64,000 nt of DNA from Antitrichia curtipendula. Taxonomy: Eukaryota > Streptophyta > Bryopsida > Hypnales > Leucodontaceae. Below, in pieces: positions 1-38,758 of this stretch. A program made the translations under genes and the position numbers. The stretch lies in assembly GCA_951230915.1 (NCBI GenBank), contig OX579637.1, positions 4,340,001 to 4,404,000 on the forward strand, in the 5' to 3' direction. The notes below the pieces were generated by a model, which was not told where the DNA came from, ran no database searches, and was given only the letters and a program-made list of their open reading frames with translations. Position 1 is the stretch's first letter. Every line of letters starts with the position of its first letter.

Positions 1-50
1 AGTCCGTGCCCAAGACGAGAGTAGACGCAACAAACGTGTCACTGTTCCTG

Positions 51-189
51 GTAAGTTCATAATCCTTAACTCGAGTCAAGTCAAGCGTGCAACCCTGACG
101 AGTTCCCTGCATGCGGTTCAACACTCTAACTCGAGTCAAGTTAAGCTCCCTTACTAACTTCATGTGCATTTTCGGGAACTACTCTTCAG
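51..189 (+). other. Intron with two CTCGAG-type palindromes (copy A)
   Basis: A donor GTAAGT follows position 50 and an acceptor TTCAG ends at 189. Two imperfect palindromes built on TAACTCGAGTCAAGTTA lie at 65-85 and 126-145. The corresponding intron of copy C (16411-16614) also carries a palindrome, but of the TTTAGCGC family. Confidence 0.6.
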
Positions 190-1519
190 GAATTCAAGAA
201 TGCGATCAAGCTCAGGTTCACCATGATCGACATCAAGAAGAACCAGGGGTATTTGGGAAAGAAGAATTAGAGAGACATTGACATCCACAATGAGATGAAG
301 CTCATTACGGCATCGCAAGATGTATATGACCTCTAGGCTGAGGTCATTTCCAATAATTCTCAGGGGCAACTCATCGACCCGGATTCTACAACTGCGATTA
401 GGCACACAAAAGGGTGGAGCTCGAAGAAAGACGGTGTCATGACCCGAGAGTTCTTCAAGTGGATTGGGAACGTCACGGAGGGTGACCTGAAGAGGCTCGC
501 CCTACATCTACTTAGCAGGACCCCAAACCGCAAGGCGCCGCACTCGAAGGTAACAATGAGAGCTCCAAGGTCCGTTCTCCTTGATTGCTACATTGTGAAG
601 GAGTGGCTCGAGAGGACAAAACGGAAGGCAGCTACACTACCTTGACGACAAACTGAAATTTTTTGACAACGATGGCAATTACAGGAGGAGTGCCTGGAAG
701 GCCTTCAAGCGTAAGTACAACATCACCAAGGCAACAAAGAACACACTTCTTACAGGTCCCGGTGAATCCTTCTTTTCTTAGGCCAAGATGCCATCCAACA
801 AAAAGAAGACCATCGAGGAATTGTTGCCAGTGGCCCAGGAATTCTTCAAGGTCTTCATGGAGAGCAAAGGAAGATTCATGAAGCCAAAGGCTAGGGCGTT
901 CTACCGGCCCTTTGAGATGAAGGATGACAAGTTGGGTGACTGGGACTTGAATGTCTGGAACAAATCCTTGAAGTCCAGAATCAAGTTGGCGATAATAGAC
1001 TTCAGAAACATCCCGGAAATCATCAACAAGGAGAAGTCGGCGACATACTTCGAGAAGTTCATGGGCATTCTTGAAGAGGACGTTGTGGAGGAGCTGATAG
1101 ATCCCGAAGTTTGGTTGTGGATTGTCGGTGACAAGGATGTCGAAGTGGATCTCCGGAGTTACATTCGGACATCCCCATTTGCAGGAACATACTCAATGCG
1201 GTTTGCAGAGTACATTCCATCTGCTTTCGAACGCATTGGGGACGTTTCCGAAAGGAGCACCCGTGCAAAAGAGCCTGTACAGATGCTCTTCTTGGTGAAG
1301 AACGGAGCGGCGATCAAGACTCGCCAAATTCCCAAGACGTTTAGTGTGTCTCCGAGTTCGCACTACAACTCCAAGAAGCAGACCGTGGAGGTGGAATACA
1401 GAATGTATGACACGGAACTGCAGGTGGAGTTCTACTTGACCGTCATGGACTTGTTCGTCTCGTCCAGGGACGTAGTGTTGTCATACTTCGCGGGAGGGAA
1501 AGCAATATGCGCGGCGTGG

Positions 1520-1709
1520 GTAAGTGTACCGAGTTGATACTTTAACTTGGGTTGAGTTGAATTATCCGGCTGGTGGATTGTTTGCTGTGATTGATGCATG
1601 TAAAGATCGCAATACTTTAACTCGGGTCAAGTTGAATGCATCCTCATCGTAGCTGGTTCAGTCTTGTGTCTTGTAGATATTCTAATTGTCTCTGCTCTGC
1701 TCCCTATAG
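1520..1709 (+). other. Intron with two TTTAACTCG palindromes (copy A)
   Basis: GTAAGT donor after GCGGCGTGG and CTATAG acceptor before ATGCTATCC. Palindromes lie at 1539-1562 and 1614-1637. The intron interrupts the protein just after the motif I-like CAAW, exactly where copy C has its 193-bp intron (14912-15104), which also has two palindromes. Confidence 0.7.
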
Positions 1710-2771
1710 ATGCTATCCCTAGACCGTTTCGCCATCAGCGACAGTTCAAAGAAGGCCATGTTCTTCTCCCTCTACGTGGAATCGGAGAACATGGACAAGG
1801 ACGACTTCCTGGATTCCGTTTACTTTGTGGACGAGCAACAAATTGAGGATAGTCAGGTCAGGGGGCCGTCCTCATCTCGGGGGAGGGTCGTCTCGGAAAG
1901 AGGAAGGAGGTCCATTATTGACGATCCCGATAGTATGCCAAGAGCGTCCTAGCGAGACAACATTGTCGACCTAGACGGGGACCATGATGATGTGATGGAT
2001 TGGGTTGATCCAGTTCATGAGGGGATGAATTTGACGCCGACTATAGTCGCTTCGTCGGCTAATCTGCAGGAAAGTAGCGATATGCGGGGCTTATTGGGGT
2101 CTTCTGCACGGGATACTCAAACCCCGGTCTTCCGACCAAGGCCTATGCAGAAGAGGAAGCCAGAACCACCTGCACCTAACTCCCCCATCAATGCAAAGTT
2201 CATATATGATATAATGAGGCAAAACAACAAGGAATAGGCCAAGGCTCGAATGGAGGAACGTGAAGAGCAGAGGGAAGAAAACAAGCGGTCTTGGCTGGAA
2301 AACATGGATATGATGAAGCAATTCTTGGACAATCTTCTCGCGATCATGTCGCAGGTGGCAACTGCAAGTGTCTCTTCCATGATGAATGCGAGGCCCATGC
2401 TGATGATTGACTCGAACGCAGCCGCTCCGCAGCTGATGATCTCGAATCAAGCGCAGGGGTCCGTAGATAGTGCGAGGCAACCGCAGACAGGGTCTGCACA
2501 CATCACCGGAGGTCCGTGTGCGTTCGAGAACTTGTTGGCGTAAGCCTCCCCCAGCTTGGCTCCAAATCAAGTGGAGTTTGCGGAGGACGTGACAAGGACA
2601 GTCGCTAGTAGCCAGGTCGAGGAAGTTCCCGCGCCAGTAGTTCCTCCGCAACAAGTCGTATCGTACGACGGATCCACACCGAAGGTTGTCGCTCAGGATC
2701 AGACTAAGGAAGCTGCCACAGACGCTGTAGTGGCCAAGCAGTTACAGGGCCCTGTGACTGATGATCCTCCA

Positions 2772-2982
2772 GGTTGTTCCCTGTGACTCTTTGAGCCTGA
2801 GTTTTAACTCAATTTGAGTTAAAACTCCTCAAATGTTTTGGTGCACTTTAGGCAGGATGTAGTGGTAGAATAACTCAGTTCTCCCAGTACACTATGCGTA
2901 ATGTAAATGTTTTTATCTCTCAATGAGACATTGTAGTATAATTGTGTTCTTACATTTCATTGTCTGGCTCTGATCTTTCGTA
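2772..2982 (+). other. Probable intron with a perfect palindrome (copy A)
   Basis: A donor-like GT follows GATCCTCCAG and an acceptor TTCGTAG precedes the next open frame. At 2799-2827 is a perfect palindrome with 13-bp arms (GAGTTTTAACTCA) and centre ATT. At the equivalent place of copy C a palindrome lies at 13815-13838. Confidence 0.5.
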
Positions 2983-3280
2983 GTTGCAAGCTTGTTGTCT
3001 TCGGAAATTAAGGGCCCCCTTGTTGTATGCGATGCCGAAATCCTTGCTTTGGAGACGTCTCCCGCTTGTATCATCGTCGGGACTGTTCCACATATTCCTG
3101 ATCAGGTGGTGGGGACTCGTCCGCCTTGTCTTGTGGAAGAGAAAGTGCAAGAGGATGTCCGGGTTGGCAGAGAAGTGGAGGATGTTCCCGAAGACCCTCT
3201 TGTGATGCCGGTGGTTTCTCCATCCAATGATTTGTTGGAGACAATAAATTCGACACCGGTTCCACTACACGACGATGCGG
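2983..3280 (+). pseudogene. Copy A: acidic linker exon between methyltransferase-like and FCP1-like parts
   Basis: Open frame flanked by an acceptor (TTCGTAG) and a donor (GATGCG then GTACGT). The product is rich in Val, Pro, Glu and Asp and has no recognisable domain. It probably joins the upstream linker to the FCP1-like exon that starts at 3487. Whether this is one gene or two cannot be decided without transcripts. Confidence 0.4.
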
Positions 3281-3425
3281 TACGTTCTTAGTGTTCTATG
3301 TGTACTTGTTACTTTCCCTTCATGGATGTAAGTTGAACGTCATGGAGACATAGCTGACCTACTGTAAGTTGAACGTCATGGAGACATAGCTGTACGTTCT
3401 TAGTGTTCTATGTGTACTTGTTACT
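3281..3425. repeat. Two nested direct duplications in an intron
   Basis: GTACGTTCTTAGTGTTCTAT and its next 14 bases occur at 3281-3314 and again at 3392-3425. A 29-bp unit beginning GTAAGTTGAACGTCATGG occurs at 3329-3357 and 3364-3392. The duplications repeat the intron donor. Confidence 0.85.
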
Positions 3426-3486
3426 ATAGTTTTCGTCCGAGGTGCATCTGTTTAATCGGCACTTTGTCTTTGTTCCTCATGGGCAG

Positions 3487-4389
3487 GGTGAGAAAGCCGT
3501 TGCTCTAGGTAATGTGGAAGGACGGAGAGTTCCCCCATTCAAATCCAGGTTGACAGAAAAGTGGCTCAATGTCTTCCTGGATCTGAATGGTCTACTCATC
3601 TTGTGTGATGATTTAAGTTATCACATGGTTAAGAGAAGATTTTGCTTTCCCGATGAAGTAGTCCGTGATCCAAAAGACATTATGGATATTAATAGGGTCA
3701 CTCTTCGGCCATACGTAAGGAGGTTCCTGAGGGAACTATCCTCCATTGCAAACGTAGTAGTGTGGAGCTCCATGAACAGAAGCTACGCCCAATATATTTG
3801 CAATTACGTATTCAGCGGCTTGCAGCCGCCGTTGCAAGTTCTCGGCCAAGAACTGTGCAACGTTATAAAATGGAAATGGAGGTACAGAAAGCTATTGAAC
3901 TACAGGTTGACGGGCTTGAACAAGGACCTCTAGATCAAGCCTCTGGAAAAATTGTACAAGTTAAAGGGGTCCATTTTTACGGAGGATAACACAATTATAG
4001 TGGACGACATGCCAGAAAAACACTTCATGAACAACGCCACTAATGTCGTGCTCTTAGATCCGTGGTCGCCTGAAGGAATTGGGTTGAGAGATGAAATCCT
4101 CATGAGTGAACATCTGCCCTGGATTCAAAGAGTGCACGCGGAGAGGCCTTGGGGATTTCACCTTTTTTGTAGGGACAATTCTGTGGGGGGCGTCCACCTC
4201 CTGCATGAACTCGACCAATCCAAGTACAAAATGCTTTATGCGGCTCTTGAAGCATCAAATAGACTTCTTGATGAGTGGAAAGAGAATAATGATGAGCATG
4301 ACGGCCCTCCGCCAATGTCAAACGTGTCGCGCCGCAAGGACCTTAAGCTATCAGACATCTTGTTTGTGCTTAAACCAACTCCGCGCTAA
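3487..4389 (+). pseudogene. Copy A: FCP1-like (NIF/HAD family) phosphatase domain
   Basis: The exon opens after an acceptor at about 3486. FLDLNGLL (around 3578) is HAD motif I in the plant FCP1-like form, where the second Asp of DxDx is replaced by Asn. VVVWSSMN follows as motif II and TIIVDDMPEKHFMN (around 3992) as the last acidic motif. FCP1-family enzymes dephosphorylate phosphoserine, classically on the RNA polymerase II tail, but the Asn for Asp change argues for weak or no activity. One in-frame TAG at 3931 interrupts it; copy C has Phe there. After the core is a roughly 110-residue tail that copy C shares (WGFHLF against NGFKSF). The frame ends at TAA 4387. It is linked to the methyltransferase-like part in copies A, C and D. 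Confidence 0.75.
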
Positions 4390-4595
4390 AGCAGCTCATA
4401 GGTGCCATAGAAATCTGGCTTCCGTGGAGTTGTAGTGTATGTACTTTGTGTGGAAGTTATAGTGCAACTATTCATTAGTAAATGTACAATTTTTTTTTAT
4501 AATGCAGGCCTTTGTTTTATGTCCGAGATTTATGTGTTTTGGTGGCATCAAAAGAACATTGTGAAGACAAAAAGTGTGGCCTTTGTTGATTTGCT

Positions 4596-5314
4596 TGTTG
4601 ATTATGGGCAGCTCGCCATATCGCAAAGGGGGGTTTGACATATCATGTATTCAGCGGCCACGGGGCAGTCTACGATGGATTTCTTTGTAATGGATGTAGA
4701 TGATGTGTTGTTGATAGTCCTCCCAATGGAGGAAAATGTCCTGTAGTAGCGCACTCTCCATCTTGTCTCAAATCTCATCCGTAGTCAATGTCCCCACAAG
4801 ATCACTCGAAGATGAATCCCGAACTGTAGAGGTAGCTTTACGTTGATGAAATGGGTGTGCTGGCCCTTGTGGAGGTTTGTTAACAATCCGTGTCTTTGCA
4901 CTCTTTTCTGTTTCTAAGTAATGCTTTGTAGGCGGGTTAGATTGTATGTCTCTCTTACAAATTCTATATTTGCAGGTGGATGACATAGTACCTATGTCTG
5001 TCGCCATAATTGACAAGACTTTCAAGGACGTCGAGCCTACGAGTCACGGAGACCAACCAACCCCATCGACGGGCTTGCCTCATCCTCGATTTAAACTGTC
5101 TTCATTGAATCTTGCCAAACAGCAATGCAAAACACATGATGGATTGCCTCCTTTTCATTGTGGCCGTCATCCGTGGGACGCTTAAGAGCGGAGGTCCTTG
5201 CAGAAACAAAGGCGGGAAACTGTGCACCAAAGATCTGCTAGTAGTAGTGGATATAGTCGAGGGCCAGAGTTATTGAAGGCAATGGAAGTGTTGAAGAGTA
5301 GGTCGCACTCGTAG
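4596..5314 (+). pseudogene. Copy A: C-terminal module shared with copies B and C
   Basis: Two coding patches are visible: VDYGQ...STMDFFV (4600-4700), and 4976-5314 after a GCAG acceptor, ending ERRSLQ...GYSRGPELLKAMEVLKS. Copies B and C carry the same pattern (YGQ..ILSTGNFLC, TMDF, SPP, then ERRSLQ-like and GYS.GPEI). A TAA at 5183 stands where copy C has Trp. I do not recognise the module. It lies directly after the FCP1-like part in A and C and may be its last exon. Confidence 0.55.
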
Positions 5315-5779
5315 TACATACTAGCTTGAAGACCATCACCAAAAACTTTAGTCTCCCATAAGTACATTGGTGTAAAATTTTAATGAATCATTCAACTATT
5401 GATGAATGATTCCAAATTTTGGATTCTAGGTTCTTTGCTATTTTTCAAGCAAAGCAGCAAAATTATATTGTGCATAGCACTACCGGCTCATAGATTGTTC
5501 CAAAACTTATTAGCAATGTATTATATCTTCCTTAGTTGTAGTAGATCAGTAACTGGAAGGTTAGGATGAGTAAGCAATGCTTCTGCAAACATGCATTTTG
5601 CAATGTAAATAACCTTTATATAGAAATTTGATGAATTTTTTTCATTAACTATATTGTATGTTTCATGTAGTGCATGCTATTTCATAATTCTTCATTTTCA
5701 AATATGTTTTAGGTGTCATTCCATTACTTTTTATAGGATTGCAAACAAGAATTTCTTCTTCATTTAACACTTATGAATG

Positions 5780-6172: not shown

Positions 6173-6958
6173 TTATCTTCGAGCCGAAGATAAAGATTGA
6201 TATTGTAATACAATAGTTTGGCTATGTTGTTAGAGTTACATGGTCTCAAGGTTAGTTGCCACGGTGATTATGTGGTATATTTGGTTGAGGGGAGAATTCG
6301 TTGCATGTTTATTGTAGGATTAGTTTTATGATTGGATGTTGTGACTAATTGGGTTTCTCAAATTTATCCTTGAGTCAAGGATAAATACTTTCACATTTTT
6401 TTTTATAGACCTTGTCTTCTACTCGTGTGACAAATTTGTTTATCCTGGCGCATTCATTTAGTTTGAGGTTAACTTTGACTCCAAAATAATTTTTTGGTTT
6501 GTTAATAATTGCTTAGATTAAGAGTTTACTTTATGTATATTTAAATTGTAAGTTTGTACAATTGTTATCTTTGGGTCAAAGATAACATTTTCATTTTTTT
6601 TGCTTTGCTACTGTGGTTGTTTTAGGATCCTATCTCCTTGACTCCTAGAGAGTACTTTCTATTGGTTATATATTGTTACTTGCTTTGTTATCTTCGAGCC
6701 GAAGATAGTTATCCTCAACTCAAAGATAACTTATCATGTACAAGCCTAATTAATTAATTTATATTTTTTCCTATGCAACTTTCTGTTTTTTGCTCTATTA
6801 GGATTTTAGACACTTGTCAACAATATTTTTGGGATTTTTTTTTTTTTAATGTTTTTGTGAAGTTATTTGTGGAATTGTCTTAGAACTGTAATGTTTATCT
6901 TCGGCTCAAGGGTAATTATCTTCAATGTGAGGGTGATAATCTTGAAGCTGAAGATAAG
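6173..6958. repeat. TTATCTTCG palindrome family, eight copies
   Basis: The best copies (6173-6193 and 6688-6707) have arm TTATCTTCG, centre AGC, then the inverted arm. Others are at 6363-6385 (TTTATCCTTG arms), 6563-6587 (TGTTATCTTTG arms), 6708-6730, 6894-6915, 6916-6939 and 6938-6955. The last three are back to back. They lie in AT-rich, gene-poor DNA. Confidence 0.85.
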
Positions 6959-8232
6959 GAAAATGTTGACTTTACAAGATAGAAATACATTTTTCAACAA
7001 GATAACTTGACAATTATGCTAAAAATTCTAATTTCAAAAGTCATGTTCTATGTTGTTTATTTGACTAGAGTTGTGGACACAGACTAAACTAACGTGCTGT
7101 ACATGTCTAGTACTTTAAAAAAAATAGAGCAAATTGGATTTCAAATCACACATTTTTGTTTAACAAAAGTTTAGGGGAAAAAAAGAAACCACAACAAACA
7201 TTATATTCATCAAAATGAGAGTTTTCCAACGAAACAAGAGTCTTTTTCCAATAGTATGAGAATAGTAAGAGGCTATTGAATCATAGACAAAGAGAAATCA
7301 CATGTCCGTAACCATAAAAAAAGCAATGCAATGTCATGCAAAATAGATTTTCTAATGAAATTTTTTGAATTACCATGCAGTAATTGCAATATGCAACATA
7401 ATTAATGACAAATATTCATTAAATAAGGATGTATTGGACCAATACATTTCAAATTGGACATTTGAAGAGGCATTGCCTATCGTTACACTCCTGGAAGCAA
7501 ATTATTTCATCTCCATAATTTGTGTTAGACACTGCAAATAGATTGCTTCGAAAGACGACGCCATGGTGACAAAAGAATGAAGTGGATGCTAAGCTTATGT
7601 TCTAGAACTAAGCACAAAAATGATAGAAACAACTACCTCACAATCTATTGCAACACTCCTCCAAATGGCACTCAAGGCTTAGGTGGTTTCAAGTATTGCC
7701 TACAGGAGTGCTTACAATGGATCTTAAGTTAGTTTGTCTCAATAATTTCCTTATCCAGATTCATGTCAAAGCTCGACATCCACTTCCTTCTTCCATTACC
7801 ATGGCGTCCTCTTCCGAAGCTTCTATTTGCAAGACTATGAAGATTCGATACTATGTCTACCCGGTTTGTAATATTTGAATGGTTTGCATTGCAATCAATC
7901 TAAATATGAGCCTTTGCTACATAATAGCCTAGAATATGAAGTGTATTTTTGGCTCCCTAATATGCTGAAATGGTGTCTATAATCCAATATAAGGAGTCCC
8001 ATAATACTTCCCCTTCATAAACATTTTCAAATGATAGTAAGCCTTTCTATTTGTTGTTATATCTCTCTTACGTTTTTTAAGTTTTTGCATCTCCAAAAGG
8101 TATACTAAAAATGTATACTAAAAATGTATGTAGCTGTCGTGAGTGTAATTCACTCCAGCATTGAATTTTTTATACTAACTGCACAATGCTATTTTGTACA
8201 TATAGGTTTGAAATCTACAATATGAACAAATA
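6959..8232. other. AT-rich spacer
   Basis: No convincing gene. At 7190-7243 (minus) is a scrap reading TLVSLENSHFDEYNV, related to the segment at 11147-11260. Nothing else was seen. Confidence 0.5.
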
Positions 8233-8820
8233 TTACATGTGTGATTTACTCTTCAACATTTCCATGGCCTTTCAAATTTCAGGTCCTCGACTATAACCAT
8301 TATCACTCTTCTTATATTCTTGTAATGCTTGTCTTCTCTGCAGTTGTATAAACTTTCGGTCCTATACATCCACAACCGGTAGTTCACGTCCACTCGGGGG
8401 TAATCCGTCGTGCGTCTTTGTCTTCCGCACACTGAAAGACCTCAGATGTTGTGCTGGCAGGGGTGGTGGATGAGAACAGCTAGCAAGTATTTTATTGCGT
8501 ACTCCTTCCAATGCCACTGCCTCCACTACAGGCAAGGTCATTTTCACACTACCATCATTATAGAACTTTCTCTGCGACACTCTATTGGAGGCAGACGACA
8601 ACATTCGTGACCCCCCCACCATAGTGGGTCGTAAAGGAAAAAGGGAGCATGATTTGGACAGACGCAGAGTTCCACTTGGCGGACTATCCACCATACCATT
8701 GTCCATGGGATTCAGAGAGAAGTCCATCGTTAAATTTGTTGTCGCCACCAAACATAAGAAGTTCCCCGTGCTTAAGATTGCATTTTGGCCATACTCCAGG
8801 AAGCAAGATTGCTATTTTGT
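8233..8820 (-). pseudogene. Copy B: C-terminal module only
   Basis: The minus strand encodes YGQNAILSTGNFLC, TMDFSLN, VDSPPSGTLRLS and, near the end, GYSRGPEI and KAMEMLKSKSH, which follow the module of copy C (11614-12255) step by step. Stops are TAG at 8362, where copy C has Trp, and a TGA near the end. No FCP1-like or methyltransferase-like sequence of the copy A/C type lies upstream, so this is a truncated copy. Confidence 0.55.
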
Positions 8821-9443
8821 GAGCGTGAACTTGTGAGCTTGTGAGCATATAATTCCATCTAAAAATTTATGTCAAAATTTATTATTATTATTAAATTTTA
8901 GTACCTACATACTATCATGGACCTATTCCCGTGGACCTATTTCCGTGGTCCCTTGAACAACTACGCTATTGTGATGTGCTACTTATTGGAATTTCTTGGA
9001 TTTTAAATTTATTTATTTATCAAATTTTTTTTTGGCCACGGCTTAGTGGCTCCCCTTGGCTCTGAGGGGAGCCATGCAACAAGCGGGGAGTGATTATAAA
9101 AATCGCAATTGCAATGGACCAACTTCTTTCAATTTCAAACAAATCACCAATGTAATGATGTCCAACAATTTATTGTTGTTTATTGATGGTCTGACTTTCA
9201 TCCGAAAAAATAATATCATCATAATTATGGTCCAACTAATGAAATATAGCTTACAAAATTGGAATTTTATTCCAACTGAAAATTTGGTAAAACATTGAAA
9301 TTTCAATACTTCTAAGCAAAATGAAGTTGAACCTCGAATAATTTGTTGTTGATTTGGGTTTAGGAGATACTTATAATTGAAATACAAGAAACAGTGTATA
9401 ATAGACGATAAAATAAAATCCAACAAGTGCAAAGCAACTAGAG

Positions 9444-11260
9444 TCACATAGAATGAGAGTGGTCATTATTACCTGTGGATGAAGTCTCCTGATCTAACTC
9501 TAATGTTGTCTCATCTATAAATTGTAAAACTTGAGGATCTAAAGATTTAGACTTTTCCCGTATAGGAGAATGTTTCTGAGAGGCAAATGTCAAAGTTAAA
9601 GCCTCTGCATATGATGGCAACACAGAGGACTTTCCTGGGCTTGGAAAAAACCTTGGTAAAGTGAAAAAAGGCCAATGAGTTGCCGCTTTAGAAATCATGT
9701 TGCAAAAAGAATACTGATTATTAGAAATGATTTGAATATCACATTCATGATGAAACAAACATTCAACATAAATGTAAATGAAATTTAGACAATGGTTTAG
9801 AACAACACATATCAATTGGAAAAAAATTACAAGCTTGGATAGACTTACTTACTAAAACGGGATTTCTTCACGATGTGGGGAACTTCAACTTCCAATGCAT
9901 CTTCATTGTTAGAACCTAGTACCACTACCGCAATTGATGTTGGAACATCTAGAACTGAGCAAATTTTGGGTCCAAAATTGCGTCAAAGATTGCCTTGTCT
10001 TCTTCAAGTGCAATAATGTGCTTGCTGAGGATCCTACAAGCCTAGATGGAGGCTCCTAATTCCAAGAACAGAACAAATTCAGTTATTAGAGAAGGCCTAA
10101 AGAATAAAAGAGAACATGAAAATCGGGATAACAAAAAATACATTGTAAAGGCATCTGGAAGGACCTGTTGCAGCAATGTAGTTGATAACAACGTCATTGA
10201 GAAGTGTCGATGCCTCTATCAACATTTGGAGGAATCGGGGATCCTTTTCTTGTGCTCCACTCCAAAGCTTGAATTTGGAATCCATGGTCAATGTCTCTTT
10301 CTTTCTGAAATTTTGAAGAACATCATCAACAGCTACGTCGATCCCTAATTCCTTGAGCCTTGGGCATAGCTGAAATTGGAACTTAGAAGGACCAACTCCT
10401 GGCAAGTTCCTCACCAACAACATAATACCAAAGCATTGTGTCTGCAGGAATGATGAGGTAGAAAAACAATCAGTCTATAACAAAGGCATAGATGTATACT
10501 ACAAGCTTACTTTAAAATCAATACAAACTAAAATATCTCAAAGCATACTATTCAAAAATAGAATAAATCATAATGTACACTTTAGTATAATTAAAAATGT
10601 TAGAATTGACCTAGTAATATATTTGACTTCACCAGAAAAAGATGATAGGAAAATAACTACTTGCAAGTGAAATGACTAAAGACTATATTGTTTTTGAAGG
10701 AGAAATAGGTGAGGCCAGATGTAACCAATTCATTTCCTACTAGTCCTTTATCTTCTTGAAAGAATATGTAGTACCGTACTTGAGAATCATGGCCTTTGTA
10801 ACGGCTCTCAAAGAATAAATAATGATAAGAGCTCCATCGTCATGTAGATGACCATCAACAAATTCAAAAATTGCCTCTAGCTAGGAAGGATTGTCCACAT
10901 TCCATTTTGGAACGCTAGTTGCAAGCACTGACAAATAAAGGACCGGTAAACCCTCTCCCATGTCTGCAATAATAAGCTCAATCCGTGGTTTATCACTCCT
11001 CTTTCTTTTGAAGAAGCACTGCTTGTCCCCTTTGTGTTGCAACAGATTTTTAGCTGTCAGACCATCGAAGCCCAAAACAGAGTAAAAGCTCAAGACTAAT
11101 ATCACAAGCAGAAGCTAAAAGTCATGTAAAACTACTAACCTTATCAATGAATTTTAGTATGCCATTGCACACTTGGGGCAAAGGATCAGCAATTACATCC
11201 ACAAGAACATTATATTCACTATTTTGAGAGTTTTCCAGCGAAATGAGAGTTTATATTTAA
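9444..11260 (-). pseudogene. Second-subfamily DNA-methyltransferase-like gene, C-terminal half
   Basis: Read from high to low coordinates. 11147-11260 encodes TLISLENSQNSEYNVLVDV. 10740-11105 encodes RIELIIADMGEG, then LEAIFEFVDGHLHDDGALIII, matching a Rossmann strand with motif IV (IADPP-like) followed by helix and strand. 10140-10423 encodes EASTLLNDVVINYIAATG, resembling motif I (GDxVLDPFAGSG). 9470-9700 is a Ser/Pro-rich tail. An in-frame TAG at 10881 would be Gln if it came from CAG. Catalytic Pro and Gly residues are changed. Introns separate the parts. No ParB-like segment was found upstream, unlike E at 29557-32247. Confidence 0.45.
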
Positions 11261-11613
11261 TGCCTTAGAATTTTGCAAAGCAAATAAAAGCAAAAAAGAA
11301 GAATTAAACGTCAGCAAATACATAAAATGCATTCAATGACAATGAAAACAAGCTTCCAAATGAAGAATTCAGAAATGATATGCTCAAATTTGCACACTGC
11401 ATCTCTATTACCCCAAAAAATCATATCGTTTATATATATTTTGCTTTGCAATGCGTGCAATATATACTCCTCTATATGATGACATGTGTAGGATCCAAGC
11501 AATAGATGCGTGATAAAAGCAATCCCTTGGACCCACCTAAGATAATAGTGGACTAGAATTCAGATAAGAAGCATAAAAATCATGTAACTAGAATGCACAT
11601 GTATTATAAACCA

Positions 11614-12255
11614 CTAGCAACTACGTGATGTACTCTTGAGCTTTTCAAGGGCCATTAAAATTTCAGGCCCTTGACTATACCCCCCTTTGACACTTGCACC
11701 TACCTGACGCATGTGTTCTCTTTCTTGCGCTTGTAGTGACCTCCGTTCCCAAGAGTCCCAAGTAGGAGTGGAGGATTGAGTACACAGTGACCTTTTAGCT
11801 TTTTTTTTTATCCTTCCTGATTCAGTCAATGCACGACAACGTGGAAGTAGAAGACAAGCAACCACGGGTTCAAGAATTTCCGCAGGCAGATCACTTGGCG
11901 TATGGGATTCTACATCCGGTGTAGACAGTAAATAATTAGCATCTCCATAAAGGTTCTTTTGCGTCCCTTTCTCTAAAATAGTTGGCAACCTTGACGAATC
12001 CCGGACTGTCCGAGAGCGCAGAGGAGATGGCCAGCAAGAAATCGACAAGCGCGGCTTCTTGTCTGGGGGACTATTTACCACTCTGTCCTCGATCTGCTTG
12101 ACAGGGAAGTCCATGGTGGAATTAACAATAGGAGCCGAGCAAAGAAAATTCCCCGTACTAAGTATCACGTACTGCCCATAGTCCAGAATGGAGTCCTCAG
12201 ACGCTTGACATGGGAGGATCCCATCCAGCCTAGATCTTATAGACGCGTTTTTCAT
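11614..12255 (-). CDS. Copy C: C-terminal module, intact open frame
   Basis: The frame is open from an acceptor CCCTGCCAG at about 12256 to the stop at 11614. It contains YGQYVILSTGNFLC, TMDFPV, NSPPDKKPRLS, a basic RIKKKAKR stretch, and WDSWERRSLQ...GYSQGPEI near the C-terminus. Copies A and B match all of these blocks but carry stops where C has Trp. There are no membrane segments. The basic patch could be a nuclear localisation signal. It probably forms the last exon of the copy C transcription unit. Function unknown. Confidence 0.5.
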   Translation of the reverse strand: MKNASIRSRLDGILPCQASEDSILDYGQYVILSTGNFLCSAPIVNSTMDFPVKQIEDRVVNSPPDKKPRLSISCWPSPLRSRTVRDSSRLPTILEKGTQKNLYGDANYLLSTPDVESHTPSDLPAEILEPVVACLLLPRCRALTESGRIKKKAKRSLCTQSSTPTWDSWERRSLQAQEREHMRQVGASVKGGYSQGPEILMALEKLKSTSRSC

Positions 12256-12497
12256 CTGGCAGGGAAAAATAAGAAAATTAGCCATAGAACTTTGAATAGG
12301 TCATAAGTACATAACGTTCAGTATAAGCTCTAGCCAGATCAGAGGACCTTCGAGCTGTACAAACAAAATCGACCCAAAGGACACGATACCGCGAAGGCCG
12401 AAGGGTGCTAAAATGCAACAGCGAAATACGAAAAAATAAGCTGTTTTAGGACACTACATTTTTGGTCGACTTAAGCTGCATACCTCCAAAACTAAGT

Positions 12498-13296
12498 CTA
12501 ACTAACACTAGCAGACCCACGAAGGACCTTTATAAGATTGTCATACTCTCGGCAACCTTGTTCTTTGCTCAGCATTCGTCTTCCAATCCTCCATTTTTTA
12601 TTCTCTCTGAAGGACTTGAAACCATTGCTACGGTTGAAGTACAACTGTTGGAACCAAGGAAGTAGAACTGCCAGAAGAAACGTGTCCCTATCACCATTTC
12701 CTCAGATACTCCAGGAATCTGATATTATTACATTCTCAGGCCTGTTCATGATGTGTTTACACGGGCTGTCGTCTACTACGATTGTATTATGAGAGGTGAA
12801 ATTCTCATGGAAGCCAGCGAAAAGGAAATCTAGGTTCTTAAGGAACAAATCCTTGTTTGTTCCAGGTTCCTTGTAAGAGGTCAACTTCCCGGCTCTATCC
12901 CTGCACTTGATAGTCTTGCACGAGTCTTGCCCAAGAACGAGAAAGGGCCATTTTCCCTCCCGAAAGAGGTATCTACAAATTTAATTGGTCGTAGTTTTTT
13001 TCATGGAGCTCCATACAGTAATTTTTGCTATCATCTCTAGCTCCTTCAAGAACTCAGCGCAATTTGGACGAACATATACTGCTTTGGGTCCAATAATTGC
13101 AGTGATTGTAGCAGAGTGCGGCTCTGAGGCTTCGCAAAAATGCTTGATTGAACTGTTGGACTTCCAATCCGCGCAGCAGCATAAAATGCCATTGAGGTCC
13201 AAGACGACGTTCATCCACTTTTCTGCCACCCCGGACCTCAATGGACGATGGACGCCCTCCGTATTTCCTTTACGGTTTACTGTAGGATTGGACCCC
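12498..13296 (-). pseudogene. Copy C: FCP1-like (NIF/HAD family) domain
   Basis: The exon starts after GTTAGCAG at about 13297. VVLDLNGILCCC (near 13200) is the plant-type HAD motif I, ITVWSSM follows, and NTIVVDDSPCKHIMN (near 12770) is the acidic motif near the end. Key positions match copy A. Breaks are a TAA at about 12980, where A has Tyr, and a TGA just after DSWSI near 12700. The tail to 12498 matches the tail of copy A. It lies between the methyltransferase-like part and the C-terminal module. Confidence 0.7.
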
Positions 13297-13864
13297 TGCT
13301 AACAAACGTACAAATGTGCATCCAGTTACGCTCGTGAAACTGGCTTAATTTGTACGTCATGTGAAATCATTTCATTGCTGAAGGACAAACGACAATGTAG
13401 AATGTCCAGTTGTGCCATTCAAAGACAAGAGATTATACCTTCTCCAGTGCCGAACTTGAAGGCCAATCAGCAATTTCACAATTGGTTGCCACACAATGAG
13501 GCGCTGAAGTATCTTCATCCAATTCAACAAACTTAGCTGAACATATCGGATTATTATCCTTAGCCTGATTTTGTGTAGAAGGGAGAATAGAAACCTCAGG
13601 TCAACTTTCCAGATTCATAAGTCCTGCAATTCATGATTGTGGAGAAGGACTCTCTGTAAGATATATATTGCATTTTCAATGATAATTGTCCTTTACAATA
13701 TAGAACTCAATCCACCAGTGTCAAAACTACAACTAACGCCAACACAAACAATGTCCGGATAAAAATCGAGCACTGCATCTATAGACAAAGCTAGAGCTAA
13801 AACTCTATCAAACAGTTTAGCTCGAGTTGAGCTAAATCTACATCAGGCAATGCTCACTAAGTGT
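13297..13864. other. Intron or spacer of copy C, with one palindrome
   Basis: No good coding frame. At 13815-13838 is a palindrome with arms GTTTAGCTC-like and GAGCTAAAT-like, a variant of the TTTAGCGC family. Copy A has a single palindrome at the matching place (2799-2827). Confidence 0.5.
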
Positions 13865-14911
13865 TTATTGGGCAGAACCTGTAGGTTGATCTTCGGTGGG
13901 CAAGGCATCACTTCCAGGCTCTACCTTGGAAGCATCTCTGGACAAGTTCTGCCCAATCTCCATCTCCGCAGCTTTCACGTTGGGACGTGGACTCCTCACT
14001 GGGTCTTCTTGCTGAGCTTCTGGAGGAGAGGGATCACCAACAAAAACTTTGGATGGCAGAGGTGCGGGCGACTCGGGTGCGCTACCAGGAATTGCCGTAT
14101 TTGGCTGCGACGGACTCGAGGCGTTGCTTATGTTAGAGCTGGACGGCTGGCCCAACAGTTGCAGCATCAAAGTTTGTGGAGGAGGGGGCACTGTTGCGGA
14201 CGGTTTAGGGTCAACCTTCATGATCAGGATTTGAAGCATTTCCCTGTTCTGTTGGGCTAGCTCGCGGTTGTTTTGGGACTCCAACCGCATCCACTCCTGA
14301 TTATGTCTGTGAAGTTCAAGGTTTTCAGCCCTCTCCTTTGCGTTGTCCTCCCTCATCTGCGCTAGTGCAAGCTCATTTTGGTGCTAGTTCAGCTGAGCTT
14401 GTTGTTGCATATTCGCTAGCGATAAGATAGTCTGGGCTGTAATCTCCGCCAACTGCTTTGTAATAGTTGTAACTGTTTTGCGCTTCCTCTTCTTTTGTGG
14501 GTGTCTAGATGCAGTAGGAGTCTTCTGTGTTACAAGCAAAGGAGGTAACATGGAGCTCGCCGATGATCCTGGTATATCTGTAGATGGGCATCTCGTCGGT
14601 GTTGCCATTTCATCGAGCCCTTGAGGCCCGTCGTCTTCAGTGTCTTCCTTGTCTTCCTCGGATTCGGAATCAGAGTCTGGTTCTACGTAAAGCGGAACCT
14701 CCATCCGCCGCTCACTGAATTGGAAAGTCTGGCTCGACCTCAAATTCCTCTTCGAGGATGAGGGCGTTGAACTTGGAACTTTACCAGCTGACCTTGGGTA
14801 CCCACTCTCAAAGAAGTCGGTTATGTCTAGCATCATTGCCTTCTTACAGATTTCTTCCCACCAACCCGATTGAGAACCTAGACCAGTGGCAAAGATATTC
14901 ACGTTAGTCAT

Positions 14912-15104
14912 CTGCGAAGAAGAAATCTTATTGTTAACGCAATCGGCAAAAGATGCAAGACATTTTAGCGCCGCCCGCTCTAAAGCGACAACTCATTCGA
15001 GTGCTTAGGATCAGAAACAACAATGACAAGCATACAATACAATGACTACATACATGCAACTCAGTTTAGCGCGACCCGTGCTAAAGTACAGTCATGATGC
15101 ATAC
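14912..15104 (-). other. Intron with two TTTAGCGC palindromes (copy C)
   Basis: Donor GTATGC at 15104 and acceptor TTCGCAG at 14912. Palindromes lie at 15064-15089 and 14963-14985. The position in the protein equals that of the 190-bp intron 1520-1709 of copy A, which carries two palindromes of a different sequence. Confidence 0.75.
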
Positions 15105-16410
15105 CACGGCTGCGCACGTTAGCTTGCCACCCGTGTAACCGGAGAAGATCGACATGCCAGACTTGCAGAATGCCTGCACAAGCCACAAGTAGAATTCCAT
15201 TCTCAGTTCTGTGTTGTGAATCCGATACTCCAGCTCACTGTACGCACGTGCTTTCATATACCGTGCCGTTTCTGGACACTCAAACTCGGAAGGGACTTCC
15301 ACCTTGTTCTCGTTCTGTAGATTCTGCAAAAAGATGAGGAACACTTTCTTGGGCGTCCTCGCTGCTGGTACATTTTCAAGCCGGTCATTTTTTCCAACGG
15401 AGTACACGGAATAGGAGATCAAGAACAATTTGAAAACCCTGTTCAATTCGACATACTTCAGGGCTTGAGCTTGCTCCTTCTCGTCACCACAAATGAAGAG
15501 CCACGACGGAACATCACCAAGTGCAGGTTTCTTTGTGTTGTCCATGGACGTGAGTACTTCAATGAAGTACGGATTGTCTACGGTAGAGCTGACCTTCTTA
15601 TCAATCCCCGGCAAGGACCTAAAGTCAATCACCCCGAGCGCAAGATGATTTCCGATCTCCGTAGTCCACACCTTCTTTGGCCATTCCATGTGACGATTTT
15701 CGACCCAATCATAGGATTGATAGTGGCCATTTGCTGTCGGTTTCTCAAACTTTTCTTTGTGTTCAAGGAACACCTTGAAGAAATCATAGGCGTCTTGGGA
15801 TAGCTCGGTGATCACCTTGTTCCTTGCCGATTTGTTCTTCGCTCTCCCAAAGTAGGCTTCACCGGGCCTATCGAGCAGCACGTCCATAATGGCGCTGGAG
15901 AAAAGGCATTCCTTCTTAAAGGCCTTCCAATTCTCACTGATGATCTCGTTTTGTGCGTTCATAAGCCCAAGTTGAGGCTTGATGCCATGCAGCTCCTTGA
16001 TCATGAGATTCTACCGCTTACGACGTTCAACCCACTCCTTTGTGCTGAAACAGTCATGGAGGACTGACGTGATACTCTTCACTGTGACCTTCGGATATGA
16101 ATGAGTGCGTTTCCCGCCCGATTGGTTGAGCAGATGTTTTGCAAGTTTTGCTATTTCATCGTAGCTTAGATTACCCAAGTGCTTGAAGAATTCACGATTC
16201 AACAAGCAACTTTCGGGATTCCAATCCTCCTTAGCGTTAAACATCATATCCGTGTCAGGATTGAAGAGCTCTTTGTGCGCGGCGGCGGTGATCACCTCAC
16301 TCCACAGCTTGTATACATTGTCGGGTGCCGTGATGAGCCGTAATTCGAGCGTCAGCTTCAGCTTCTCTTCTTTATACTTCGTCTTCGAGATCTTCGAGAT
16401 CTTCGAGATT

Positions 16411-16614
16411 CTTGACATTCAACATCAATCATGGAGAATCTCATATACATTGCCCTCTCGAACACTTATCACATATTTTGGAATATGGAGTTAGAAATGG
16501 TAGCATAATTTCATGTAATTCAGTCGGAATACATGAAGCAAGAAATTCAGCAAGGAATGAACTGATCCACATCTTAGGGATGCAGTTTACTGCGCCTTGC
16601 GCTAAAGTGCTTAC
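16411..16614 (-). other. Intron with one TTTAGCGC-type palindrome beside the donor (copy C)
   Basis: Donor GTAAGC at 16614, acceptor TCAAG at 16411. The palindrome at 16582-16610 starts within five bases of the donor and could fold over it in the transcript. Confidence 0.6.
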
Positions 16615-18126
16615 CTGGAAACTCTCCTTTTTTTGCCTGTTCTCTACTGTCCTTCTCGTGGACGCGAGAGTACCAACTGACTTTATTGGCGTCGGATTTT
16701 CAGGCCTGCCCATATCCTCCAGGACATTCTGAGCTCCCAGAATATTGGTCGCCCAAGATGGTTGAACAGCCACAAAATGTTTTGTGCGATTATAATATGC
16801 GGAAATGCTTCGCAACCTCTCAGCATCTTCTGACCACACGATGAAGCAATTCCATTTTCAAAAGTGCTCCCTCTCATCCTTGTCGATGTTGTTTTCGTTA
16901 TCGAATATGTACTTGCTAGCTTCAACACTATGCTGCTCGTTGATGATGTAGAATTTCCCGGCCTTGATTTCCTCCCACCTTGTAGGCTTCTTCTTCAGAC
17001 TGACGGGCATGACGTAGAGCGTTTGTTTGGTGCTCTTGTTTGGAATATTTAGGAGCACATTCACCATGTCTTCAACAATGCTGCTCTGCTTGGACCGTAT
17101 GTTAAATGTTGGCGGCGCCTCTATGAGCTGAGCGATGTCAATCTCTTTCTTCTCACCAACACCAAAGACATATGCGTCTTCACAGGTGGTCCAGAACTTT
17201 TTGTACACTTGACTTATATGCTCATAGTCAGGTTTCTTCTCTATCGCCCGCAAGTGTGGCACATTTTCCATCTCGTCCGCGTAACTCCCTTCTGCAACCT
17301 CTGAAGTTTCAGACTCCTTTGCATAAGGTGTCTTCTTAGACGGTATTGCAGCTTTCTTTCCCTTCCGCGTGTCGGTCTTCAGGGCTGGCGTCTGAGTACT
17401 TTTGTGACCCCAACTTGCACCCAATTCCAACTTTCTTTTGATTTTGGAGGTCATACTGCTGCCTTGGTTCATAATCTCCTTTGACACAGACCGGGCTCTG
17501 TTATTCTCCTTTTGCATCTCAAGCTTCCCCTTCAGCGTGTGTAAGTCATTGAATAACATACGGATTTTGCTGCATAGCTTTTTCCATGTGAGGGGGGTCC
17601 CATTTGCATTCTGCCACTTGTTGTTGTCTAGTTTCTTCTCCAGCTCCTTGATCTCATCGCGGTATGGAGTAGGTTCAAGACTTGACAGGAAAGAGCCAAC
17701 TGGAAGGGCACAAGAATGGAGTTGATGCAGATTGCGAAGTGGTAGTTATTCTGCCTACTCTCACCGGGAATCGTTGTCATGCATTTGACTTTGATCATTG
17801 GATGCGTGTCTGCCTCTACATCCTTTATCTTTTCGTGAAAAGAGAGTTGCAAGAAGCACTGAGCGTTTTTAAATTTATACGAGATGCAGAATTGGTTTAC
17901 GAATGGGATCATGAATAGGCTCCAAGCCTCAACTCTCTCCAGCTCTTTGAATTCCCAATATTCTCCTTCTATGAGATGGTCGTCTGCACTTTTGTTATTG
18001 TCGTGGAACTGCACTTCACATCTCTTGAAGTACATCTCTAGTGCCTCGATTTGATTATCCATCCTCCTAACAGAACAAAGTGGGAAATGAAGTTAGTCGA
18101 CAATGGACAATGTTGTTTTTTACCAG

Positions 18127-18160
18127 TTGCATTTTAGCGCGACACGCGCTAAAATGTAGT
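18127..18160. repeat. TTTAGCGC palindrome upstream of copy C start
   Basis: Arms TTGCATTTTAGCGCG-like on both sides of a short centre, about 65 bp upstream of the copy C start codon. It is the nearest unit to the gene and precedes the array at 18391. Confidence 0.8.
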
Positions 18161-18282
18161 TTCATGCACAATGTCACATTCAACCTGATTGATGATCTTG
18201 TCTGCCTTGAATTTGCACGGCTCATGCTAATCAACCTTTTATTCTGGTGCCTTAGGACTTTTGTCCTGGCTGTTGTTTCATG

Positions 18283-19094
18283 TACAGCGGTGGATCTCAG
18301 TCTTTTACGCTAAACTGTCCCCCTCCTAGCAACTCCTGTGAAATTGGGTATTGCTCTTTAGGTACGAATGTCTTGTAGTGTATGTCTACTACACTTTAGC
18401 GCAACTCGTGCTAAAGTGTCTTCTGGCAAGCAGATTGTATTTGCTTAGGTGCTGGTCCTTGATTACTAATTTAGTTGTGGTTCCGTTTGGTCGACTTTAG
18501 CGTTGTGCTCGCTGAACTCTCTTCCAACCAACGGATCTTCTAGTTTGGGTACTGGTCTTTGTTTATTGGTGTACCAGTGGTTCCGTCTGCTACATGTTAG
18601 CACGTCTCGCGCTAAACTGTCCCACTCCCTAAGGCATGTCTGGACTTGCGTTTTGCAGTTGAGGTACTAACTTACTCTTTCGTCCCTCGGCTATGCTTTA
18701 ACGCGAGCCGTGCTAAACTATATCCCTGTGATTGGTACTCGTGGACATGCGTACTGGAATTCTAGTACTGGTTTATTTCTTGGTTTGTTGACGACACTTT
18801 AGCGCGGCTCGCGCTAAACTGTCTCCCTAGCAGTGTTGTGTCTGGATTTGCGTGCAAAAGCTCAGGTAGTAATCTGACTACTGGGTCGGTTGACTATACT
18901 TTAGCGCGAGCCGCGCTAAAGTGTCTCCCTGTTAGCAATGTCTGGACATGCGTACCAGTGTTCTGATATTTATTTACCACTGGATTTATCGACTACACTT
19001 TAGCGCGGCTTGCGGTATAGTGTCTCCATGTGAACGATACTCTTGGACATGCGTGCTGATTTGCTGCACTTTAGCGCGAGCCGCGCTAAAGTGT
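18283..19094. repeat. Tandem array of TTTAGCGCG palindromes, ~100-bp period
   Basis: Palindromes start at 18391, 18493, 18594, 18695, 18794, 18896, 18995 and 19066, with a weaker one near 18290. The perfect copies (18896 and 19066) have arm ACTTTAGCGCG, centre AGC and the inverted arm. Between them a less conserved spacer repeats GTCTCCCT, TGGACATGCGT and a T-rich stretch. Spacing is 99-102 bp except for the last step of 71 bp. The array lies upstream of copy C. Confidence 0.9.
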
Positions 19095-19729
19095 CTCCCT
19101 ACCATCTGTGCGTTTCGTGAGGTTTTATGCTTTCCGACGATTGTTTTAAGGTTAAGTTCAGGCTGTTCAGGGTCCGGATTCATTATTGAATTAACGAGAG
19201 TGCTTCCAATAACATTTGTTGCAGAATCACTGTGCATTGCAAGGGAATTAAGAATTCAGGCAGAAAATTTCGGACAACGTCGGAGAGAGAAAATTGACAA
19301 CAAACTCAATGACACACTTTCATATTAGTCAGATTTCCAGTTGCTACAGTGTTTTCCAATGCTTGCTACCAACAGTGAGACTATCATGTGAAGAATCTAC
19401 TGTGTTCGAATGAGAGCAATTTGGAATTTGTCTTCAGAAATAGCATGAAGAATATAATGCAGAAGCACAAGTCATCAGAAATTACCTGAGATTGAAGGTA
19501 TGATTTGCTTCTCGCTGGCCTTCACGAATTGCCGAATTGCAGAACTTGTTTCCACCTTCCAATTACATGTTTGCTGATTGATCAAATGAACACTAAGACA
19601 TCGAATTTGACAGTTTTGAAATGCATGAAAGAACATTAAGAATGTGATGAGGAATTCAAACGTCAAAAACAAAAACGTGCACTGATTTAGAACTTTCATG
19701 CACTTTCTTTCAGACAAGCACCTCTCACA
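19095..19729. other. Spacer, nothing recognised
   Basis: Moderately AT-rich DNA without a supported gene. Open frames here overlap the end of the palindrome array and show no family features. Confidence 0.4.
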
Positions 19730-19830
19730 AAAAACCGCATGAACATGAACATTCGATCACTCACAAGACACCGCATGAACATGAACATGAACATGAACAT
19801 GAACATTCAATCACTCACAAGACACCGCAT
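19730..19830. repeat. GAACAT hexamer run inside a ~60-bp tandem duplication
   Basis: GAACAT is repeated twice in the first unit and five times in the second. Both units end in ATTC(G/A)ATCACTCACAAGACACCGCAT. Confidence 0.9.
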
Positions 19831-19919
19831 CCTACCACTTCTTACAATATGTACGTCTGCTACAAGGCTTCTTCAACCATAACAAAAAACACAACAAGAG
19901 CACACTTGACCACATTCGA

Positions 19920-20700
19920 CAGTCCAAAATTGAAAGGTAAATTTTGAACCCTTATCCTGAAGCACACTCCAAGCACGCTGTTGCAATGGTTTAGGACAAC
20001 TCTGCTCCACGCTTCACGCACTTCTCTGAGTCAATCCGAGCAAGGTTGGAGCTCAGTTGCACAAGCCCAAACCTAAACCACAAACAATCCAAAATTCAGT
20101 ATTGCACGACAAAAAACGCAGAAGAAACTCTACACTCCCGAATTACACTAATCCCGCAAACTGAGGTTGACACAGACATAAAACAAGACCACAGGAGGTC
20201 GACGAGGACCGTGAACCCCAAGGCCCCAAGGCTAAAACCGTCACGCATCTACTGGAGCTCTTCTTCAGTAGAAACGGAAAAAAAAGCAAGAGCACACCCG
20301 ACATTCCAAAATTAAAAGGGAAATTTGAATGCTTACCTCGAAGTACACTCTAAAGCACGCTGTTGCAGTGGTCAAAAATAGCTCTTTTCTACGCTCCACG
20401 CACTTACCGGAGTTGATTGGAGCAAGGTCGGAGCTAAGTCGCACAAGCCCAAACCTAAACCACAGACAAGCCGAAATCCAGTTTAGCACGACAACAAACG
20501 CAGAAGAATCTCTACGCTCCCAAATTACACTAATCCCGCAAACTGGGGTTGACACAGACAAAAATCAAGACCACAGGAGGTCAACAAGGATCGTGAACCC
20601 CAAGGCGACGCTCGTCACGCATCTGCTGGAGCTCTTCTTTGGCAGAAACGGAAGAAACAACAGGAACACACCCTAAATCCAAATTTGAATTAAAAAAATA
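19920..20700. repeat. ~381-bp tandem duplication, two copies plus part of a third
   Basis: Landmarks CCAAAATT, GCACGCTGTTGCA, GCACAAGCCCAAACCTAAACC, ATCCCGCAAACTG and ACCACAGGAGGTC recur about 381 bp apart (for example at 20050 and 20431). A third copy begins near 20660 and stops soon after. The open frames here are repeats of each other and look non-coding. Confidence 0.85.
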
Positions 20701-20869
20701 ATTCAAATGCTTACCCCCAAGCGAATGCTTAGCCTGAATGTTTTCCCCGAGGCGAATGCTAATCCCAAAGAAAATGCTTACCCCGATTACTTACCTTGAA
20801 TGCTTACTCCAATGACGTTGTGGAATTGTAGAAACTCATATGCTCCACGCTCCACCTAATTGCGGAACC

Positions 20870-20970
20870 TCTGCACGCACTTCCGGAATTCTTCCGAACA
20901 ATCTCCAGGATCACTCGCAAACGCACTTCCGGAATTCTTCCGAACAAGCTCCGAGATCACTCGCAAAGCT
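20870..20970. repeat. 46-bp tandem duplication
   Basis: ACGCACTTCCGGAATTCTTC and its continuation to CACTCGCAA occur at 20875 and 20921. Confidence 0.9.
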
Positions 20971-21044
20971 TCAACTCCAACAGCGGACGAGCTCAACTTC
21001 GAAGAAACAACAAAAATGTCGAACGACAAGTGGGAGCCAAACCC

Positions 21045-21260
21045 TAGAGTAGAACGTCACCTCGCACCCTAAACTGATATCCTAAATCCATACCCTAGCC
21101 TATACCTTGATCCATAATTTGGCCCGCCAATACCCTGAACCCATATCTTGGCCCGCCAATACTCTGAACCCATATCCTGGCCCAACAATATCCTAAATTC
21201 TAAACCCATACCCTAAATCCATACCCTGGCCCAGCAATATCCTGACCTACAAATATCCAG
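21045..21260. repeat. Telomere-like and ~29-bp satellite-like repeat
   Basis: Degenerate CCCTAAA motifs mixed with two full ~29-bp units beginning GGCCCGCCAATAC.CTGAACC and a third, more diverged one. Confidence 0.75.
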
Positions 21261-25300: not shown

Positions 25301-25391
25301 TTAGTTCTGTAAAATACGGGATTGCTGAGCACATAATGGGTTTATTCTTGATTGTTGTGATTTTGACATGTTGTACATAAAGGCGCCCGAT

Positions 25392-25883: not shown

Positions 25884-26066
25884 TACATCCTTTACATGTC
25901 CTAAATTTGAATTGCAATTTATGACTTCTATTAATTGCACAGAATTCATGATGAATATATGATCAACAACATTTGAGAACTAATTAAGAGAAATGACGTG
26001 ACGATTATGGTTCATGTTTTTTAAGAGCCTAAAAATATCTTTGGTTTACTGTGTTGTTCAAGTGTC

Positions 26067-32247: not shown

Positions 32248-32325
32248 CTAAAATACATTAGAAGATGGAAAGATACGCGTTAGCTGTAAAATGAGATGAC
32301 ACCAAACTAGATGGTAACCAAGCAC

Positions 32326-38750: not shown

Positions 38751-38758
38751 ATTTTGCT
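38751..38758. other. Target site duplication, right (ATTTTGCT)
   Basis: Exact copy of 34682-34689. Confidence 0.95.

Follow-up and report, generated by a model that had tools for sequence, protein, structure and literature searches.

Two homologous introns in the moss Antitrichia curtipendula raise the question of how palindromes can be kept in place while their sequence is exchanged. The introns belong to copies A and C of a long, degenerate gene and lie within the window analysed here, a 64,000-bp stretch of contig C5 (G000:C5:4340001-4404000) from a genome of 400.19 Mb in 303 contigs. Their palindromes belong to a multicopy DNA transposon with inverted ends, 4-bp target duplications, and two divergent genes, and in this transposon the sites hold their positions while their spelling switches in concert. 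The explanation favored here, rated as somewhat better than even, is that the palindromes are sites of a dimeric transposon-encoded protein, likely a methyltransferase-fold/NIF protein, which co-evolves with its sites and likely opposes silencing.

Palindromes in introns and upstream of transposon genes

Every site is an imperfect or perfect palindrome of 21 bp, in which two 9-bp arms with the general half-site form WTYARSKCG flank a variable 3-bp centre. When the window was searched with TTTARCKCGNNNCGMGYTAAA, allowing up to 3 mismatches, 30 sites were returned, compared to 0.2 per Markov shuffle (10 shuffles), and the exact palindrome pattern occurs 451 times genome-wide compared to 0 occurrences of the reversed control pattern; shuffles and reversed controls thus rule out chance palindromes. 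The 32 tabulated window sites carry 2.19 CpG each, compared to 0.52 expected. Half-sites associated with genes A and E have A at position 5 and T at position 7 in 21 of 22 cases, and those associated with C and D have G at position 5 followed by G or A at position 7 in 35 of 42; the G-G combination is found in no A/E half-site and the A-T combination in no C/D half-site. No family was matched in Rfam at the gathering threshold, and in IMG/VR no relative was confirmed and both exact palindrome patterns had 0 occurrences.

The initial annotation had described the two introns with their lengths, two palindromes in each (TTTAACTCG type in A, TTTAGCGCG type in C), and further palindromes in other introns of both copies. 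The introns are as described, the four sites were located, and sites are also present in introns 1 and 3 of both copies (Table 1). Position is kept while sequence has switched, as had been claimed, and both arms switch together. The emphasis on introns was only partly borne out: the intron sites are real, but these four are imperfect palindromes, and 22 of the 32 tabulated sites lie upstream of genes, mostly in arrays, with fewer in introns.

To count spellings in the mapped elements, 52 of 150 symmetric 21-mers lacking the general core were set aside, including one copy A and one element VI palindrome that resemble family members with an altered core. The remaining core-bearing symmetric sites comprise 58 ACT and 2 TCT sites in the ACT family, and 32 GCG, 3 GCT, 2 GCA, and 1 GTG sites in the GCG family. 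In every mapped element, the long gene and its DUF7869 partner share the same spelling. Element IV (C1:2832623-2851189; loci L008, L013, and L029) also contains nine occurrences of a 21-mer, CCACATGTAGAATCCATGTGG, that is 8/9 symmetric.

Conserved position and switched spelling across genomic copies

The last residues of many homologues of the methyltransferase-fold protein are translated intron, because their open frames continue beyond the 5′ splice site. Among 82 homologues, 42 had an exon end that could be recognised and at least 8 residues of tail, and in 40 of these tails the fit to the palindrome exceeded that of shuffled versions of the same tail (≤10 of 200 shuffles reaching the fit), a result that is partly circular because the half-site model was written after the tails had been inspected. 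By symmetry alone, 24 of the 42 tails allow a perfect palindrome, compared to 12.4 expected. For intron 1, six tails were usable from 61 N-terminal-exon homologues (P0227, missed by the pattern, was excluded); the best fit lies at +8 from the splice site in all six, as in window copy C, and was matched by 0-6 of 200 shuffles, with P0224 the weakest. When mapped onto the protein tree, with its 42 labelled rows, the spelling is arranged by clade, and positions 5-7 change 7 times.

A genome search for the methyltransferase-fold domain gave 812 candidates, 93 of which were scored; 20 of the scored copies, 47-75% identical to P0001, were sampled across the identity range. Intron 2 holds a palindrome of at least 8/9 pairs in 16 of the 20, compared to 138 of 6000 shuffles (2.3%), and the first palindrome begins at +18 or +19 in 10 of the 20 (three of them 7/9). 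The spellings include TTTAGCGCG, ATCAACGCG/ATCAGCGCG, TTCAGCGCG, TTTAGGTCG, ATCAGGTCG, ATCAGCTCG, and TTCAGCTCG. In intron 1 of the same copies a site is present in 13, and 12 copies have sites in both introns. Within these 12, agreement between introns 1 and 2 at positions 5-7 is 0.849, compared to 0.628 after re-pairing, and 0 of 5000 re-pairings reached the observed value, a figure that is not a clean probability because the copies are related. By position, the signal comes from 6 (0/2000 re-pairings), 7 (11/2000), and 3 (22/2000). The proposal that spelling tracks the protein phylogeny therefore holds in the tail fits and their tree, and the expectation that homologous introns carry palindromes is borne out in most, but not all, of the sampled copies.

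Architecture of the transposon

The outward-pointing terminal motif GAATATRATGTT is common to A, B, C, D, and E. Element ends were set by comparing genomic copies, whose similarity ceases at this motif or within 13 bp of it. Flanks, compared by eye, show an exact 4-bp duplication in six of seven elements with both ends read (AATA, ACTT, CCAT, GAAG, AATT, and CAAG); the seventh, element 1 of the window, has flanks AACA/AATA with one mismatch. Elements are 18.5-24.3 kb long, excluding element 1, within which another element is nested. All eight mapped elements (I-VII and window element 2) have two divergent genes, of which the long gene encodes an N-terminal domain, a methyltransferase-fold domain, a tail, and a NIF-like domain, and its partner encodes the DUF7869 protein. 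Palindromes precede both genes, except in element VII, where the start of the long gene was not found; within ~2.5 kb of either end of the mapped full-size elements, no palindrome of the studied family is present.

The palindrome is also found in gene-less miniature inverted-repeat transposable elements (MITEs) that have the element's ends. Three were read: L001 (290 bp, one palindrome), L002 (358 bp, two), and L031 (~430 bp, three), with 4-bp duplications TTGT and TCAT found by script for the first two and AAAG by eye for the third; the palindromes of L002 and L031 sit in a repeated unit of ~72 bp. By a hand count based on the shared AAT/ATT centre, 18 MITE loci are among the 50 sites listed out of 451. 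Since the palindrome is kept and multiplied in copies without either gene, these results suggest a cis role for it in the element, not in the gene alone.

Predicted functions of the encoded proteins

Residues 242-457 of P0001 have a predicted fold like that of the beta-class DNA amino-methyltransferases M1.HpyAVI, CcrM, and M.BceJIV and of MTA1/METTL3-type relatives, and the long-gene domain is accordingly predicted to be a degenerate beta-class DNA-methyltransferase fold. The catalytic motif of these enzymes is (D/N/S)PP(Y/F/W). Neither this motif nor motif I, D.(F/Y/W).G.G, is found in any of the 82 homologues, many of which are partial; a working methyltransferase is unlikely for this reason, and the domain is probably not functional as such. 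Thus, the predicted fold is shared with the beta-class enzymes and the catalytic motif is not. No Pfam family exceeded its cut-off in P0001, P0031, or P0048 (matches below cut-off, including PYRIN, Tugs, Spectrin_2, and Med13_C, were disregarded), and a sequence search of the PDB returned no relative. Purifying selection was detected on the protein exon.

In the NIF phosphatase motif, a second catalytic Asp is expected at the place where DLNG is read here. The NIF-like domains at 3430-4386, 12600-13298, and 60201-60704 all show DLNG at that place, and they may therefore be inactive or altered.

The DUF7869 protein is possibly a transposase, judging from its annotated relatives: of 120 listed, one (P0136) is called a transposase by its source, and Physcomitrium patens is the only named organism, in two rows. 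DUF7869 was the sole Pfam match in the DUF7869 proteins scanned. Their structural model is poor (predicted local distance difference test, pLDDT, 61; predicted template-modelling score, pTM, 0.31), and structure comparison, which bears on whether the fold is the RNase H-like catalytic one of DDE transposases, gave no usable match. A literature search for DUF7869 returned no match; no claim that the system is unpublished is made beyond the searches performed.

Proposed recognition mechanism and alternatives

In the favored model, the palindromes would be bound as double-stranded DNA by a dimeric, sequence-specific protein of the transposon. The most likely binder is the methyltransferase-fold/NIF protein whose introns hold them. 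Each monomer would read one 9-bp half-site, with positions around 5-7 determining subfamily specificity. With sites in introns, in arrays ahead of genes, and in MITEs, the protein would be able to mark both autonomous and non-autonomous members of its own subfamily. The marked copies would be switched on, most likely because the protein counteracts silencing in the way VANC does for Arabidopsis VANDAL elements. Sites and protein would change together, so that subfamilies in one genome would cease to cross-talk. A spelling that changes as a set between subfamilies is what would be expected if a transposon protein recognised its own copies, and a shared reader would be expected to make two different introns of one copy switch alike, as observed. 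We infer that a transposon-encoded protein binds the site, that the methyltransferase-fold/NIF protein, and not the DUF7869 protein, is the binder, and that binding results in anti-silencing.

Several observations weigh against this model. The methyltransferase model is of moderate quality (pLDDT 70, pTM 0.55) with low Foldseek TM-scores (top match 0.24 by query, 0.46 by target), and the closest element pair, I-II, has a ratio of nonsynonymous to synonymous substitution (dN/dS) of 0.44. Four of the 20 sampled introns 2 lack an 8/9 site, L037, L049, and L051 having 7/9 sites only and L040 no palindrome at all, and 7 of the 20 intron 1 pieces have no site. The re-pairing test treats related copies as separate, although members of a subfamily have common ancestry. 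In this test, within-copy agreement extends to half-site position 3 (22/2000 re-pairings), and position 5 shows no agreement signal. Finally, intron 3 of the GCG family holds TTTAGCTCG in 3/3 elements and does not switch with the rest.

The DUF7869 protein could also be the binder, because its gene has the same sites. The palindromes would then be binding or synapsis sites of a transposase with internal enhancers, and the co-evolution would be with that transposase; this explanation is considered unlikely, although it survives better than the others. Arrays do lie upstream of the DUF7869 gene, MITEs, which need recognition by the transposase only, retain the sites, and proteins D and E also differ (~50-68% identity in aligned pieces). 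On the other hand, the terminal ~2.5 kb of mapped full-size elements are free of studied-family sites, and the introns of the long gene carry sites just as regularly as the region before DUF7869. The original proposal that the gene product reads its own palindrome gains from the concerted change across introns and both genes, but the reader could be the DUF7869 protein, or both.

Less probable again are promoter or enhancer elements for host transcription factors, an explanation in keeping with arrays upstream of both genes and with sites close to intron 5′ ends; the genome has several spellings, each near-uniform within an element, and a shared host factor needs neither. It is improbable that the palindromes are functionless, with a palindromic repeat that acquired its concerted spelling through gene conversion and tandem duplication. 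The arrays are indeed tandem repeats, but arms are better conserved than spacers within the same units (0.85 compared to 0.56 for flanking spacers in the gene D array), single sites of introns 1 and 2 share spelling within a copy, and the site is retained in MITEs. RNA hairpins formed in the pre-mRNA, acting for instance to control splicing, would account for how little the distance to the 5′ splice site varies in introns 1 and 2, but they are highly improbable because sense-strand mismatches show no G-U bias (13 GU compared to 21 AC; 5 compared to 9 in a second count), and the same sites occur in arrays ahead of genes and in MITEs.

A bolder form of the self-recognition model, tentative and on balance doubtful, is that a catalytically dead methyltransferase fold joined to a NIF-type phosphatase domain acts as a dimeric reader of 21-bp palindromes spread across the non-coding DNA of the element and lifts silencing of its own subfamily only, with protein and palindromes co-evolving and many mutually exclusive specificities coexisting in one genome, in a system unlike any described. 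If the favored model is right, sequence-specific self-recognition has had at least two origins among transposons, one in the VANDALs of Arabidopsis and one here, based on different proteins. No stop is listed in 26 of the 93 scored methyltransferase-fold copies, and protein-DNA co-evolution is directly testable because one genome has both open-frame copies and several half-site spellings. Residue-to-base reading rules could be tested in this one genome, and such work might yield palindrome readers that are orthogonal to one another.

Comparison with known systems

VANDALs are Mutator-like elements with target duplications of ~9 bp. In contrast, the present transposon has DUF7869, 4-bp duplications, and a methyltransferase-fold/NIF protein. 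The cited reports describe VANC as an accessory protein of the multi-gene VANDAL DNA transposon of Arabidopsis that removes DNA methylation (PMC5735166, PMC10398659). As described there, VANDAL motifs are short and build up in tandem arrays, both within the introns of VANB and VANC and ahead of VANA; they differ between related families, and the VANC6 motif is also found in the unrelated element AT9TSD1 (PMC5735166). To that extent the likeness is close: motifs here lie in introns and upstream regions, often as tandem repeats, and differ between families while being uniform within one, except in intron 3 of the GCG family. The VANC21 motif is given as nine bases, YAGTATTAY, arrayed in one orientation (PMC5735166), unlike the 21-bp 9+3+9 palindromes found here. 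By analogy, then, the system appears to work like VANC in layout, with a different transposon type and motif form and apparently different proteins, and it is not classed as a VANC member. Fungal DNA transposons have captured TET/JBP dioxygenases, thought to aid escape from silencing (PMC12730594); these likewise combine a transposon with a DNA-modification-related protein, but the protein and hosts differ, and no recognition motif is mentioned for them in the abstract of PMC12730594.

Other features of the window

Coordinates are collected in Table 1.

Table 1. Introns, palindromes, genes, and elements located in the window.
Feature	Position	Strand	Details
Intron 2, copy A	1520..1709	+	GTAAGT...TATAG, 190 bp
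Palindrome, copy A intron 2	1541..1561		TTTAACTTG GGT TGAGTTGAA; 6/9 pairs; +21 from 5′ splice site
Palindrome, copy A intron 2	1616..1636		TTTAACTCG GGT CAAGTTGAA; 7/9 pairs; +96 from 5′ splice site
Two palindromes, copy A intron 1	65-85 and 125-145		ACT type
Palindrome, copy A intron 3	2803..2823		9/9
Intron 2, copy C	14912..15104	-	GTATGC...CGCAG, 193 bp; homologous to copy A intron 2
Palindrome, copy C intron 2	15065..15085		TTTAGCGCG type; 8/9; +19 from 5′ splice site
Palindrome, copy C intron 2	14964..14984		GCG type; 7/9; +120 from 5′ splice site
Palindrome, copy C intron 1	16586..16606		6/9; +8 from 5′ splice site
Palindrome, copy C intron 3	13816..13836		TTTAGCTCG; exception inside GCG family
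Palindrome just upstream of gene C start	18133..18153		9/9
Array upstream of gene C	18395..19090		8 GCG-type palindromes; spacing ~100 bp
Array upstream of gene D	25397..25823		8 GCG-type palindromes; 58-bp spacing
Array upstream of gene E	44834..45193		5 ACT-type palindromes at 44834, 44918, 45002, 45108, 45173
Further palindrome upstream of gene E	45915..45935		ACT type; makes looser set of 6
Third palindrome array	6173..6957		half-site TTATCTTCG; same 9+3+9 format
Gene A	1..5320	+	degenerate, limits approximate; begins upstream of window near C5:4338592
Right end of gene A's element	5853
Element 1	7197..49682		contains element 2 as a nested insertion; remnant B runs leftwards and gene E rightwards
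Element 2	11206..29657		18.45 kb; gene C runs leftwards and gene D rightwards; inverted ends AACATTATATTC / GAATATGATGTT
Element 2 target duplication	11202-11205 and 29658-29661		CAAG
Gene C	11617..18061	-	degenerate, limits approximate
DUF7869 gene D	26068..28904	+	degenerate, limits approximate
DUF7869 gene E	46018..48853	+	degenerate, limits approximate

Gene C is ordered as N-terminal exon, methyltransferase-fold exon (to 15105, with an in-frame stop near 16011), tail, NIF exon (~12600-13298), and last exons. Between A and B there is a piece of a further, divergent element. The TTATCTTCG array, which belongs to a divergent relative, lies upstream of a minus-strand exon-1-like fragment (~5930-6133) whose resemblance to the N-terminal exon is weak (hhalign E 0.0026 across 52 columns, probability 11%). 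The exact TTATCTTCG palindrome occurs 206 times genome-wide (control, 0), and among the listed sites there are seven cases of two groups 6.9-16.7 kb apart, as in the other families.

At 58500-64000, on the minus strand, lies a gene that has a NIF-like domain at 60201-60704 and, preceding an intron, a motif-I-like block. This region, copy F (58-64 kb), was rejected as a fourth copy of the long gene, its piece at 63020-63427 having no domain similarity by hhalign; its NIF domain is the one reason for retaining it as a lead. Between 57 and 64 kb the window has no palindrome of at least 8/9, and those in L026, four in number, are not members of the studied family.

Element 2 contains a direct repeat of ~440 bp, 80% identical, between its two arrays (19908-20721). 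A SINE-like (short interspersed element-like) repeat with a possible tRNA B-box lies downstream of both DUF7869 genes (29226-29440 and 49193-49404; 75% identity), and inverted structures that are 91% and 93% self-complementary, unrelated to the studied palindromes, occur at 53710-53892 and 54006-54059. Copia remnants of plant type are also present in the window. Contig C5 (37.2 Mb, 9.3% of the genome) holds 50 of the 93 methyltransferase-fold exon copies scored among the 812 candidates, and may possibly be a sex chromosome or another transposon refuge.
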